From positions 1-37,111 of the forward strand of contig JAITRU010000048.1 in assembly GCA_031288225.1 (NCBI GenBank): a DNA stretch of 37,111 nt, given 5' to 3'. How positions within the stretch are numbered: position 1 is the first letter of the stretch; every line of letters starts with the position of its first letter. Positions 26,206 to 37,051 of this stretch are shown one piece after another. Under the pieces are notes generated by a model that ran no database searches, had not been told where the DNA came from, and saw nothing but the letters and a program-made list of their open reading frames with translations. The position numbers were made by a program, and so were the translations under genes. This stretch comes from Holosporaceae bacterium. Its GTDB lineage: Bacteria > Pseudomonadota > Alphaproteobacteria > UBA3830.

Positions 26206-27789
26206 ATGAAAAGGATATTTTTTCATTTAATTTTTACATCGGCATTGTCGTTGCTGAATATTGCTAATGTAGATTTTTGCTGTGCCGCTGACCATGTAGC
26301 AGACATTGCTCTACTGAAACAGCAAATTGAACTTCTACAGCAGAAAATAAGTGCCCTTGAAAAGAGTTGCATCAAACCAGAGCAGCAGGCACGATCAGTA
26401 CAATTACCGCAATTGCAACAGAAATCATTCCTGTCAGCATTAGCGAAAGTTCCACAAGTTGCCACTGTGCCTCAGGCAGATAAGCCCATCGATGATGGCA
26501 ATTATTTGGGAAAAGTTCCCGATTCCAAAATCAGTGGTTCCGCCAATGATAAAGTTGCTGCAAAAACCAATTTCGTCATCCCGGGTCTTAACACGACAAT
26601 ATCACTTTCTGGGTTTATAGATTTGTGTGGCATATATGATCTAGAAGGAACTACGGGAGGAATTATTGATACCAACGGAGAGGGTGCCTACTATTCAAAT
26701 TTACGCACATTGGCTACAAATCCTACGAGCACCACCAATGGTAATTTCTTTTTTCACGCACGGGCATCACGACTTGCCGTAGCATCAAAAACTCCGATTG
26801 ATGGCAAACACGATTTATCGATCTGTTTGGATGTAGATTTTCTTGGTGATCCATCTTCATCTCCTCTTATTACCAATGGGTACCTTCCTAGATTAAGGCA
26901 TGCCTATGCGAATCTATATGGCTTTACTATAGGACAAGCTAATTCCACGTTTACCGATTTAGTTACCTACGGCGAAACGGTGGATTTCGGTGGTCCGGTG
27001 GGTCATTGCCAAATAAGACAGCCGCTCATAAGATATAAAATGAATCCGTGCTGCAGCACAACTTTGGAGTTTTCCATTGAAAATCCAGACAGCGAATTTT
27101 TAACTCCTAATCTTTATATGCTTTCCACGTCTTTAGCAAAGTTAAAAGAACCACTGAAGGAAAACCTAAAAGGAGAAAACCGATTTCCAGACTTGGCTGC
27201 GGCTGCGTCCTATGACAAGGATGATTTATATCTGCGATTAACAGGGCTTATGCGGATCAATTCTGTGTGCCGCGTGGTGAACGGCAATTCTGAAACCTTT
27301 AATGCTATGGGATTTGCGCTGGCTTTAAATCTGAGATATAAAATTTTCAAACACGATGAATTTTTGGGAAAGATATCCTATGGTAGCGGAGCTGGTCGCT
27401 ATTTTACTGACATATATTGCATGGCAACATACTTCGATGAACATGGAAAATTACACTCCAACAAAGCATTGCAATTGTTTGCTGGCTATAAACATATGTG
27501 GAACGAAAATCATAAAATCAAATCTTCCGTTATCTTTGCCTATCTCAAGAATTATAATTGTTCTGCATTGAGGAATAAGATTGCTGAAAGCGGAATAAAT
27601 GATGCTGAGTTAAATAAGCGCATCGATCTCGTCAACAAAGCCATAATGTCATTTCATGCTAATCTAAGCGGGAATTTAACCGACAACGTCACGGTATCTA
27701 TCGAATATATGTTTGGGAAACGATGGACCGAAGCCAACAGGACCGGAATATTGCAGCGAATTACTTTTGGTTGCAAAATATTATTTTGA
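26206..27789 (+). CDS. DcaP-like outer membrane porin
   Basis: Signal peptide, N-terminal coiled-coil (ALLKQQIELLQQKISALEKS), FVIPGLNTTISLSGFIDLCGIYD at the barrel start, C-terminal ITFGCKILF ending in Phe; TTGGAGA RBS. Confidence 0.75.
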   Translation: MKRIFFHLIFTSALSLLNIANVDFCCAADHVADIALLKQQIELLQQKISALEKSCIKPEQQARSVQLPQLQQKSFLSALAKVPQVATVPQADKPIDDGNYLGKVPDSKISGSANDKVAAKTNFVIPGLNTTISLSGFIDLCGIYDLEGTTGGIIDTNGEGAYYSNLRTLATNPTSTTNGNFFFHARASRLAVASKTPIDGKHDLSICLDVDFLGDPSSSPLITNGYLPRLRHAYANLYGFTIGQANSTFTDLVTYGETVDFGGPVGHCQIRQPLIRYKMNPCCSTTLEFSIENPDSEFLTPNLYMLSTSLAKLKEPLKENLKGENRFPDLAAAASYDKDDLYLRLTGLMRINSVCRVVNGNSETFNAMGFALALNLRYKIFKHDEFLGKISYGSGAGRYFTDIYCMATYFDEHGKLHSNKALQLFAGYKHMWNENHKIKSSVIFAYLKNYNCSALRNKIAESGINDAELNKRIDLVNKAIMSFHANLSGNLTDNVTVSIEYMFGKRWTEANRTGILQRITFGCKILF

Positions 27790-29771: not shown

Positions 29772-30329
29772 TTATACCACCTTTCATTAATGTTCATATT
29801 TCCAGAAGAATTATTATAATTGGCGCACAATAAAAAACAATACTTATTAGGTTTTCGGGATTGACCTATAATACCATTCCTCAGAACAAATTATCCGAAA
29901 GCTTTTTCGGGAAGCCCGAACACGAGTCTGCCAAGCGCTTGCTGAGAGAAATTAATAATGAGGAATGGCATAAGCATATAAAATGATATGAAGAACTTGG
30001 TTTATTCGGAGGAAAATAATGTAAAATACATTGTTGAAGATATTATCTTGCTCGGTTAAACAGAAAAGCCAAATGCCGCTCAAAATCAGCTCAATTGCTT
30101 GGGCTTTCCGTTTGTTTACTCATTCATCAAAAATTTAATCTACGATGGTTGAATTTTACCAAGGCTCTGCTGCGAAAAAAAGCCAAAAGCATGACTATAT
30201 ATTGCACCAACCTAGTTTTTACAATATATTACAAGCTGGTACGTTTGTGAGTAATTTGGTAGACTATGAACACTGATTTTTATGCTTGCCCTGCTCGAGT
30301 ATTACCAGGTTTGCGTGGGTTCTGTTTCG

Positions 30330-31205
30330 ATGGTTAAGTTCTATACGTATGCCAAGTGTGTCCTGTGTGGTGAGCACGCTGTTGTACGCGGTGGTAAGGC
30401 TGTGGCGTTTCCTCTGAGTCACTACAGTTGTTCCGTGCAATACGAAGATACCAATGATGATACGATCGTAGCCAATTCAACTAGTTATGATGGTGCAAAC
30501 TGCGACGAGTTGCTTCACAGGCTCATAGCGACAGCTCTTGAGATCACAAATATTCCGAAAATTACAGGTACTTTTGTCATCAATAACAACATACCGATTG
30601 CAGCTGGGCTAGGGAGTTCCGCAGCTATTTGTGCAAATCTTGCGAGAATATTTAAGCATTTTGGCTTTTGTTCGGATGTTATCGGTTTAGCAACTCAGCT
30701 GGAAGATATATTTCACCAAAATAGCAGCGGGCTAGATCCCGCAGTGGCGGTGATTAATAAGCCGATAATCTTTCAGAATAGAAAGATTGTGGAAGTGCTG
30801 CACATTCCTTCATGGCCATGTCTGATGGTTTCCTATTCCGGAAAAAGTTCTCCAACGAGCGAGTGTGTGAGAATTGTGAATGATATTTTTACTCACAACA
30901 TCGAAAATGCGATTGAATTGGATGGACAAATGAATGAGGCATCCAATTTATGTGAAGTTGGCCTAAAAGTTTCAAATTTTGATGCTCTAAATGAGGGTAT
31001 AAAGTTGGGATATGATGTCTTTCGGAGGTGGGGATTGTGCTCGCCATCGCTGAAGTCCCATGTGGACGCATTGTTGGACAGCGGAGCTGTTGCTGCCAAA
31101 CCGACGGGGTCCGGGCTGGGCGGATTTGTAATCAGCCTGTGGAAGGAAAAACCAAAACTGCTCCATACTAATGATAATATATATTTGACATTAGGTGGTC
31201 CTTAG
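30330..31205 (+). CDS. Mevalonate kinase (GHMP kinase family)
   Basis: YAKCVLCGEHAVVRGGKAVAFPL, IPIAAGLGSSAAICANLA, LEDIFHQNSSGLDPAVAV, KPTGSGLGGFVISL. ORF track start 30282; internal ATG 30330 fits family alignments better. Confidence 0.85.
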   Translation: MVKFYTYAKCVLCGEHAVVRGGKAVAFPLSHYSCSVQYEDTNDDTIVANSTSYDGANCDELLHRLIATALEITNIPKITGTFVINNNIPIAAGLGSSAAICANLARIFKHFGFCSDVIGLATQLEDIFHQNSSGLDPAVAVINKPIIFQNRKIVEVLHIPSWPCLMVSYSGKSSPTSECVRIVNDIFTHNIENAIELDGQMNEASNLCEVGLKVSNFDALNEGIKLGYDVFRRWGLCSPSLKSHVDALLDSGAVAAKPTGSGLGGFVISLWKEKPKLLHTNDNIYLTLGGP

Positions 31206-35229: not shown

Positions 35230-35258
35230 TTGACATGTGTTTATGATTTCCATATGGT
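35230..35258 (+). promoter_or_regulatory. Putative sigma70-type promoter for the K/E-rich protein
   Basis: TTGACA (35230-35235), 17-nt spacer, TATGGT (35253-35258), ~35 nt upstream of the GTG start. Confidence 0.5.
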
Positions 35259-35293: not shown

Positions 35294-36874
35294 GTGAAGA
35301 AAAATGCCACCAAAATTGCTGTTTTGTTGCAGTGCCTGCTGTTCCTAGGTTCTGTTAGCAAAATTACCGCAGTAATAAATACCGTTGGTAACTATGTCAA
35401 AGAAAAAAATGTTAATGATAACAAAGACCATTTCAAATTGATAAAAACAGCTGAAAATGTTGTTAATAACGATAATAGCTTTTGCAACAACTTGTGCATC
35501 AATGGTGCTTTTTCCATTAGTCTCGCAGAAGAACTAAAAAACGCCATCAACAACAATGTAATAAACCGGGATTCTCATGAAAATTTAGATAAAAACCGTG
35601 CGAAATTAGGCGATGATTTTTGTGAAAGTGAGAATAATGAGCATTTAAAAGAATCGGGGGCGAAGAAAGAAAGACGGAAAAAATTGGCGGAAGAAAAGAA
35701 GAAGCTGGAGGAAGAAAATAAGAAGCTGAAGGAAGAAAAGAAGCAGTGGGAAGAAAGAAGGAGTAAGCGCTTGGAAGAAAGACAGAAAAAGCTGGAGGAA
35801 GAAGGGAAGCAGAAGGAGAAGCTGGAGGAAGAAAAGAAGAAGATAGAGGAAGAAAAGAAGAAGCAGGAGGAAGAATGGAAGAAGATAGAGGAAGAATGGA
35901 AGAAGAAGGAAGAAGAAAAGAAGGGGAAGAAAGAAGAAAAGAAGCAGCAGGAAGAAGAAAAGAAGCAGGAGGAAGAAAAGAAGCAGCAGGAAGAAGGGAA
36001 TAAGCAGAAGGAAGAAGGGAATAAGCAGAAGGAAGAAAGAAGGAGTAAGCGCTTGGAAGAAAGGAAGACTCTGGGAGAAGGGAAGCTGGAGGAAAAAAAG
36101 AAGCAGCAGGAAGAAGGGAAGCAGAAGGAAGAAGGGAATAAGCAGAAGGAAGAAGGGAAGCCGGAGGAAGAAGAGAAGAAGCTGAAGAAAGAAAAGAAGC
36201 GGAAGAAAGAAGAAAAGAAGCAGGAGGAAGAAAAGAAGCAGGAGGAAGAAGATAAGAAGCTGAAGAAAGAAAAGAAGCGGAAGAAAGAAGAAAAGAAGCA
36301 GGAGGAAGAAAAGAAGAAGCTGGAGGAAGAAGAAAAGAAGCAGGAGGAAGAAAAGAAGAAGCTGGAGGAAGAAGAAAAGAAGCAGGAGGAAGAAAAGAAG
36401 AAGCTGGAGGAAGAAGGGAAAAAACAAGAAAATATCATTGGCACCGACAAAAAAAACAAAGGTGAAAAAAAAGGCATTGTCATATATACTGCAGGGAAGG
36501 GGCTTGGAGAAAATACTGGGATTAGAAGCATAATGAGAAAGAAAAATTTTGACTTTCAATCCCCAGGCAAAGAATTAGTTAAAAAAATTTCAAAAGAAAT
36601 AGGCAAGTTAATAAAGTGTGAAACTGATTCATTAGGAAAAACCAAATTGATAATAGAAAAAGGCGATGTTAGTATTGTCTTACACGAATCTGATGAACCA
36701 AAAGAAGCTGAAATTATCAAAGAGATACCAACCAAACTAACAAAGTTTAAGAAGTTAGATGTGCTATCAAAAAAAATTCTTAATAAAATAATTAACATGC
36801 TGACATGTACAACTAATTCGCAAAAAATGACTGAACTTGTAATATCACCTCAGGTGTCTGATCCAGAGAGATAG
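35294..36874 (+). CDS. Secreted Lys/Glu-rich repeat protein (predicted long charged helix) with C-terminal domain
   Basis: 526 aa, GTG start; signal peptide MKKNATKIAVLLQCLLFLGSVSKITA; about aa 120-377 almost entirely K/E/Q/R with sporadic L; ~150 aa non-repetitive C-terminal part. Confidence 0.8.
   Translation: MKKNATKIAVLLQCLLFLGSVSKITAVINTVGNYVKEKNVNDNKDHFKLIKTAENVVNNDNSFCNNLCINGAFSISLAEELKNAINNNVINRDSHENLDKNRAKLGDDFCESENNEHLKESGAKKERRKKLAEEKKKLEEENKKLKEEKKQWEERRSKRLEERQKKLEEEGKQKEKLEEEKKKIEEEKKKQEEEWKKIEEEWKKKEEEKKGKKEEKKQQEEEKKQEEEKKQQEEGNKQKEEGNKQKEERRSKRLEERKTLGEGKLEEKKKQQEEGKQKEEGNKQKEEGKPEEEEKKLKKEKKRKKEEKKQEEEKKQEEEDKKLKKEKKRKKEEKKQEEEKKKLEEEEKKQEEEKKKLEEEEKKQEEEKKKLEEEGKKQENIIGTDKKNKGEKKGIVIYTAGKGLGENTGIRSIMRKKNFDFQSPGKELVKKISKEIGKLIKCETDSLGKTKLIIEKGDVSIVLHESDEPKEAEIIKEIPTKLTKFKKLDVLSKKILNKIINMLTCTTNSQKMTELVISPQVSDPER
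36181..36420 (+). repeat. Nested in-frame tandem repeats in the K/E-rich gene
   Basis: 78-bp period (GCTGAAGAAAGAAAAGAAGCGG at 36181 and 36259), then 42-bp period (GCTGGAGGAAGAAG at 36319, 36361, 36403). Confidence 0.9.
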
Positions 36875-37051
36875 TTTCATTAAGGTGTACCAATCAAGAT
36901 TTAATCTGACAATTGATGTATAATACCATTTCCCATTGTTAAATACAGATAATTTGTTGTGATAGTTTTTATTTGATGCTATATTTTTAGTCAATATAGT
37001 CGCGTCGGGAAAAATGTGTTACGATGCTATTGGTTTATCAGGAGAGTAATT

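Follow-up and report, generated by a model that had tools for sequence, protein, structure and literature searches.

An orphan gene of a Holosporaceae bacterium encodes a predicted exported protein with a charged region that fits the single-alpha-helix type

A gene of 526 codons lies near the end of a 37,111-nucleotide stretch of DNA from a Holosporaceae bacterium, and the middle of its product consists mostly of lysine, glutamate, glutamine and arginine. The locus raises the question of what such a protein is, what structure its charged part adopts, and where and to what end it might be used. The stretch, referred to below as the window, is the entire contig 13 of a 52-contig, 938-kb assembly. 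The gene and its immediate surroundings comprise the following features.

35230-35258, forward strand: promoter-like site TTGACA-N17-TATGGT, a 10/12 consensus match (pattern match only)
35294-36874, forward strand: whole gene, 526 aa, GTG start
36922-36997, forward strand: left-hand terminus of a mobile element, also present at three other contig ends
36995-37111, forward strand: nested IS630-like element, truncated where the contig stops and present in three further copies; its HTH_Tnp_IS630 match (E=0.0098) is below Pfam's cut-off

The promoter-like match stops 36 bases 5′ of the start codon; as a pattern match, it agrees with the preliminary description of this DNA, which had credited the gene with a promoter-like sequence of its own. 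Two reverse-strand ORFs running across the repetitive part of the gene (318 and 304 aa) are S/F- or L/F-rich mirrors of the purine-rich repeat and were judged spurious. Upstream lie genes for a ParA-like protein, an aspartate kinase and NMO, in an order that is kept at the family loci read; downstream of NMO, the content varies from genome to genome. The 526-aa gene was seen only in this genome, beside insertion sequences and at a junction whose makeup varies among genomes. Genes for interface proteins are commonly genome-specific and located at such variable junctions beside insertion sequences. The next gene of the mobile element with its left end at 36922-36997 begins MSRKSALL. Elsewhere in the window, a GHMP-kinase family gene (mevalonate-kinase-like, 30282-31205) may point to isoprenoid synthesis via mevalonate in this alphaproteobacterium, and 26206-27789 encodes a DcaP-like outer-membrane porin whose N-terminus has a short coiled-coil-like segment.

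With the NMO protein as query, the named relatives found were MAGs labelled Holosporaceae or Alphaproteobacteria; several are titled rumen samples, and the isolate codes of others presumably denote termite-gut samples. These gut relatives support the earlier suggestion of a host-associated bacterium. Holosporales are obligately host-associated, mostly with protists, and include an uncharacterised gut clade found in termites and antelopes (PMC11909080).

The first part of the protein comprises two features.

35294-35371, forward strand: signal peptide, residues 1-26, from hydropathy comparison; cut likely after ITA, placed by eye with the -3/-1 rule
35372-35656, forward strand: N-terminal region, residues 27-121, Asn-rich, with three Cys (64, 68, 110) and a pI of 5.1; no family match

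In the signal-like N-terminus, MKKNATKIAVLLQCLLFLGSVSKITA, a net charge of +3 precedes a hydrophobic core of 15 residues, which is followed by a plausible cleavage site. The mean hydropathy of its best 14-mer, 2.45, is the highest among the 19 window genes compared, the four clearly exported proteins reaching 2.06-2.26 and the apparently cytosolic ones at most 1.25. On this sequence basis the protein is probably exported, in line with the earlier view of it as secreted. A hydropathy search for a second transmembrane-like stretch across the protein found none (best 19-mer 0.83), nor is there an anchor motif beyond the signal. The protein does not resemble an autotransporter or another self-exporting outer-membrane protein, since it has no family match, ends in Arg and carries no hydrophobic segment past the signal.

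The charged region follows and can be divided into two helices separated by a break, with a tandem DNA repeat underlying most of it.

35657-36061, forward strand: first charged helix, residues 122-256, with a calculated length of about 20 nm as a straight helix
36062-36172, forward strand: Gly/Pro-rich break, residues 257-293, from charge analysis and AlphaFold
36173-36439, forward strand: second charged helix, residues 294-382, with a calculated length of about 13 nm as a straight helix
35689-36416, forward strand: in-frame tandem DNA repeat with periods of 21 and 42 bp (7 and 14 codons), from TRF and lag identity

Between residues 123 and 382, K/E/R/Q make up at least 75% of every 21-aa window. 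Counted over 265 residues, the region holds 94 E, 92 K, 21 Q and 12 R (75% K/E/R/D, 83% K/E/Q/R) with 9-11% hydrophobics, and the net charges of helices 1 and 2 are +6 and +4. The layout given in the preliminary description is thereby confirmed: a polar N-terminal region of 95 aa, a K/E/Q/R stretch of ~260 residues (83%) and a C-terminal part of 144 aa with ordinary composition. Compared with 2000 same-composition shuffles, opposite charges are strongly favoured at i+3 and i+4 (z -6.7 and -6.5), as are residues of like charge at i+7 (z 8.1). The charge pattern of residues ~122-382 thus fits the single alpha-helix (SAH) type, which would make the helix monomeric. The region has much in common with SAH (ER/K) domains, such as that of myosin-6, and with EK3 peptides, namely K/E-rich heptads, opposite charges at i+3/i+4, about 10% hydrophobics and the lack of a continuous hydrophobic seam, which is clearest here beyond residue 203; about 9.6% hydrophobics have been reported for SAH domains (PMC5378345), and the repeat unit closely resembles AEEEKKK, the designed EK3 heptad, which makes a single helix (PMC5347031). 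It departs from them in its content of about 8% Gln, in its Gly/Pro break and in its placement within a predicted exported bacterial protein, where single-helix behaviour is a prediction. An AlphaFold model built without an alignment places helices at residues 117-256 and 294-381, on either side of a low-confidence Gly/Pro-rich break. The model is confident over about 121-210, with a block of pLDDT 91-96 at about 131-200, and moderately so over 301-370; overall pTM is 0.24, and the end domains are of low confidence, with pLDDT mostly below 50. The long charged helix proposed earlier is supported by charge pattern and model alike, and of the two forms then considered, single alpha-helices or coiled coils, the latter appears the less likely.

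A coiled coil would give the region another role, that of holding the protein together as dimers or filaments in the envelope. This is unlikely, although one stretch invites it: hydrophobic residues recur about every seven positions between residues 131 and 184 (L131, L138, L145, W152, L160, L167, I184), with W195, I198 and W202 further on, and form a one-sided stripe over residues 131-202. It is in that stretch that a/d occupancy is highest (0.38-0.50) and that AlphaFold likewise predicts a high-confidence helix. However, the second core position is mostly left empty, and occupancy beyond residue 203 is 0-0.3, so that unbroken heptads with hydrophobic a and d positions were not found in the charged region. 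The low overall share of hydrophobics and the charge phasing are also of the single-helix kind. It is because the hydrophobic seam is not continuous that a coiled coil is considered less likely than the single helix.

The DNA beneath the charged region suggests how it arose. TRF reports 21- and 42-bp arrays with scores up to 500, and the self-identity of the array at a lag of 21 is 71%. AAG accounts for 86% of Lys codons in the array versus 8% in the N-terminal part, 26% in the C-terminal part and 40% in five neighbouring genes, and the flanks of the array have a G+C content of 32-34% versus 46% in those neighbours. Because its codon use is unlike that of its flanks, the array probably grew through duplication of a short segment within an orphan gene that is AT-rich. 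Between repeat copies, the first codon position differs most often, and the third-position sign of protein-level constraint is absent within the array. Tiling of a 7-residue unit itself yields a period of 7, and 30% of random E3K3Q heptads also yield the i+3/i+4 signal when tiled. The charge pattern therefore fits an SAH, but alone it is no proof of selection for one.

Beyond the charged region, the protein ends in a part of ordinary composition and net charge +10.

36440-36871, forward strand: C-terminal region, residues 383-526, 144 aa, pI 9.6, two Cys (442, 505)
36566-36661, forward strand: C-terminal internal repeat 1, PGKELVKKISKEIGKLIKCETDSLGKTKLIIE, from self-alignment
36755-36850, forward strand: C-terminal internal repeat 2, KLDVLSKKILNKIINMLTCTTNSQKMTELVIS, from self-alignment

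Self-alignment pairs LVKKISKEIGKLIKCETDSLGKTKLII with LSKKILNKIINMLTCTTNSQKMTELVI at a score of 48, which 1 of 1000 shuffles matched, and a low-confidence model gives both repeats a helix followed by a strand. It can be stated with moderate confidence that this part holds an internal duplication of two ~30-aa repeats; it shows no resemblance to the N-terminal part. Searches of Pfam, NCBIfam and PHROGs gave no credible match for either end, and none was found among PDB sequences for the whole protein or the C-terminal part. The C-terminal part is without relatives in phages, plasmids, viral contigs and an 84,980-genome contig set, as well as elsewhere in its own genome and in 49 other genomes of the order, and the N-terminal part is without relatives in 40 other family genomes. 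Used alone as a homology query, the charged part returned a self-match only, an uninformative result probably due to composition correction. Four candidates were rejected: weak matches to Zn_Tnp_IS91 (E=0.055) and to an SDR enzyme (E=0.043), a CLIBASIA_05150 match (E=0.028) with 13.9 bits against a cut-off of 220, and a match in genome G014 that lies on the opposite strand and contains stops. A known housekeeping domain in the C-terminal part, a finding that would have spoken against the preliminary description, was not encountered in the family libraries. The SAH is a known structural element, here in an orphan protein that appears to be lineage-specific, with no conservation to back selection on any of its parts.

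An orphan of this kind may also be young or decaying: 21-bp slippage would then have produced the K/E array, possibly disordered, in a gene with hardly any selected function, if any. The lack of relatives, the neighbouring nested mobile elements, the low G+C content of the flanks and the lack of third-position bias among copy changes are all consistent with such an origin. Nevertheless, the frame is open over 526 codons despite about 18-30 repeat units, the signal sequence is good, a promoter match is present, the C-terminal part has an internal repeat, and the genome encodes another exported orphan (described below) whose charge pattern is the same. Slippage without function seems rather unlikely, about as much so as a coiled coil.

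The preliminary description had also raised a TolA-like role, spanning the periplasm; such a protein would link inner and outer membranes. The order of parts is indeed alike, i.e., a hydrophobic N-terminal segment, a long charged helical middle and a small C-terminal domain, and the helix would be long enough to span the periplasm. However, the same genome carries its own tolR-tolA-tolB cluster on contig 46, encoding a TolA of 412 aa, whereas the 526-aa gene follows NMO and does not adjoin tolR. Neither the 526-aa protein nor its C-terminal part has a TolA/TonB match in Pfam or NCBIfam, and the charged linker of this genome's TolA is without the period-7 charge pattern. Lacking the TolA C-terminal domain, differing in charge pattern and lying outside the tol cluster, the 526-aa protein is most improbable as a TolA-like protein, and membership of that group is largely refuted. 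Its signal is also probably cleaved, which would be a further difference.

Other K/E-rich exported proteins were sought with a DNA pattern, runs of 20 K/E/Q codons, which outperformed the homology search. Such runs occur in just 5 of 41 family genomes, and several are simple A or GAA tracts; the many matches in one genome (G001) that are poly-A or GAA microsatellites were left out. Two further cases emerged.

G000:C14:27669-30260 (L190:2670-5261): second exported K/E orphan, 864 aa, from the same genome as the window, found by the K/E/Q-run pattern
L191:1297-4143 (G017:C10): third case, exported, 949 aa, from another genus of the family, with a 112-aa charged-helix C-terminus

The 864-aa protein has a signal sequence, an N-terminal domain, a charged segment of about 121 aa and a C-terminal part of about 570 aa (574), for which no relative was found elsewhere in the family. 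Its charge autocorrelation (d3 -0.31, d4 -0.29, d7 0.34) shows the same pattern as that of the 526-aa protein. The two are alike in their signal, charged pattern, unique C-terminal part and lack of family relatives, but their sequences are dissimilar outside the charged part, and the 864-aa gene sits in a phage-head cluster of HK97 type, flanked by the genes for portal and prohead protease. Of 41 family genomes, 38 have a single copy of the portal gene, the identity being about 53-67%. Of the 29 relatives whose loci were read, 27 have portal and protease next to each other (at most about 230 bp apart), and the loci of the other two end at contig limits. This adjacency in relatives argues that the 864-aa gene is an insertion. 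The portal/protease/capsid cluster (L190:1286-9277, L202-L231) looks like a domesticated, vertically kept, gene-transfer-agent (GTA)-like cluster in reduced symbiont-type genomes. The 949-aa protein has low-complexity D/E and Q/N/G parts and the same charge pattern. DNA likeness among the three arrays is no greater than that of re-coded copies of the same protein, and no recent shared repeat origin is therefore claimed. A 2026-aa membrane protein with a very long K/E-rich C-terminal tail (L192:944-7021, G064:C120) was also observed; we take it to resemble extended VirB6/TrbL-like proteins. One could speculate that this Holosporaceae-type gut clade repeatedly joins unrelated domains to SAH stalks and inserts the resulting genes at variable sites (the NMO junction and the middle of the GTA-like head cluster would be two examples), and so maintains a fast-evolving set of rigid-stalk host-interface proteins; at present this seems doubtful.

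For the 526-aa protein itself, the reading that we favour, if tentatively, is that of an exported, lineage-specific protein in which a rigid hinged spacer joins two domains and which likely acts at the envelope or host interface. The Sec signal would direct it across the inner membrane and then be cut off, leaving a soluble protein of about 59 kDa. The charged, Q-containing SAH would consist of two segments, about 20 nm and 13 nm long, on either side of a flexible break. It would keep the small N-terminal domain, which carries Cys residues, apart from the basic C-terminal domain, in which a small alpha-beta unit would occur twice. Such a rigid but hinged spacer could present or tether the end domains at a distance. 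The protein would act in the periplasm or after release to the host, most likely at the envelope or where this gut bacterium, probably an intracellular one, meets its host. The helix is what suggests a spacer and the signal what suggests export; what suggests a host role is the lifestyle, the orphan status and the variable locus. The ORF, its repeat, the charge pattern, the absence of a continuous hydrophobic seam and of relatives, and the variable locus are direct observations, whereas export, a monomeric helix, the domain folds, the location and the host role are inferred.

A periplasmic protein of Holospora is reportedly released into the nucleus of its host (PMC9866348), which indicates that traffic from periplasm to host occurs in the wider group. 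That protein, PRP1 (periplasmic region protein 1, 63 kDa), is likewise periplasmic or secreted, similar in mass and from a Holosporales symbiont (PMC9866348), a likeness of context only. By extension from PRP1, the 526-aa protein might be a secreted nucleic-acid binder or host-nucleus effector, its basic C-terminal domain (pI 9.6, net +10) and K-rich helix binding DNA; a K/E/R single-helix region of CAF-1 does bind DNA (PMC10335832). Yet no match to a DNA-binding family was found, the net charges of the helices are just +6 and +4, and no secretion route was identified, which makes this role very unlikely.

Single alpha-helices have been studied mostly in eukaryotic motors, and to our knowledge little work has gone into natural examples from exported bacterial proteins. 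The main value of the 526-aa orphan is as a testable example of a known structural element. Should it turn out to be a monomeric stalk reaching the host, it would illustrate how a reduced-genome, probably protist-associated bacterium builds new interface proteins from short DNA repeats.
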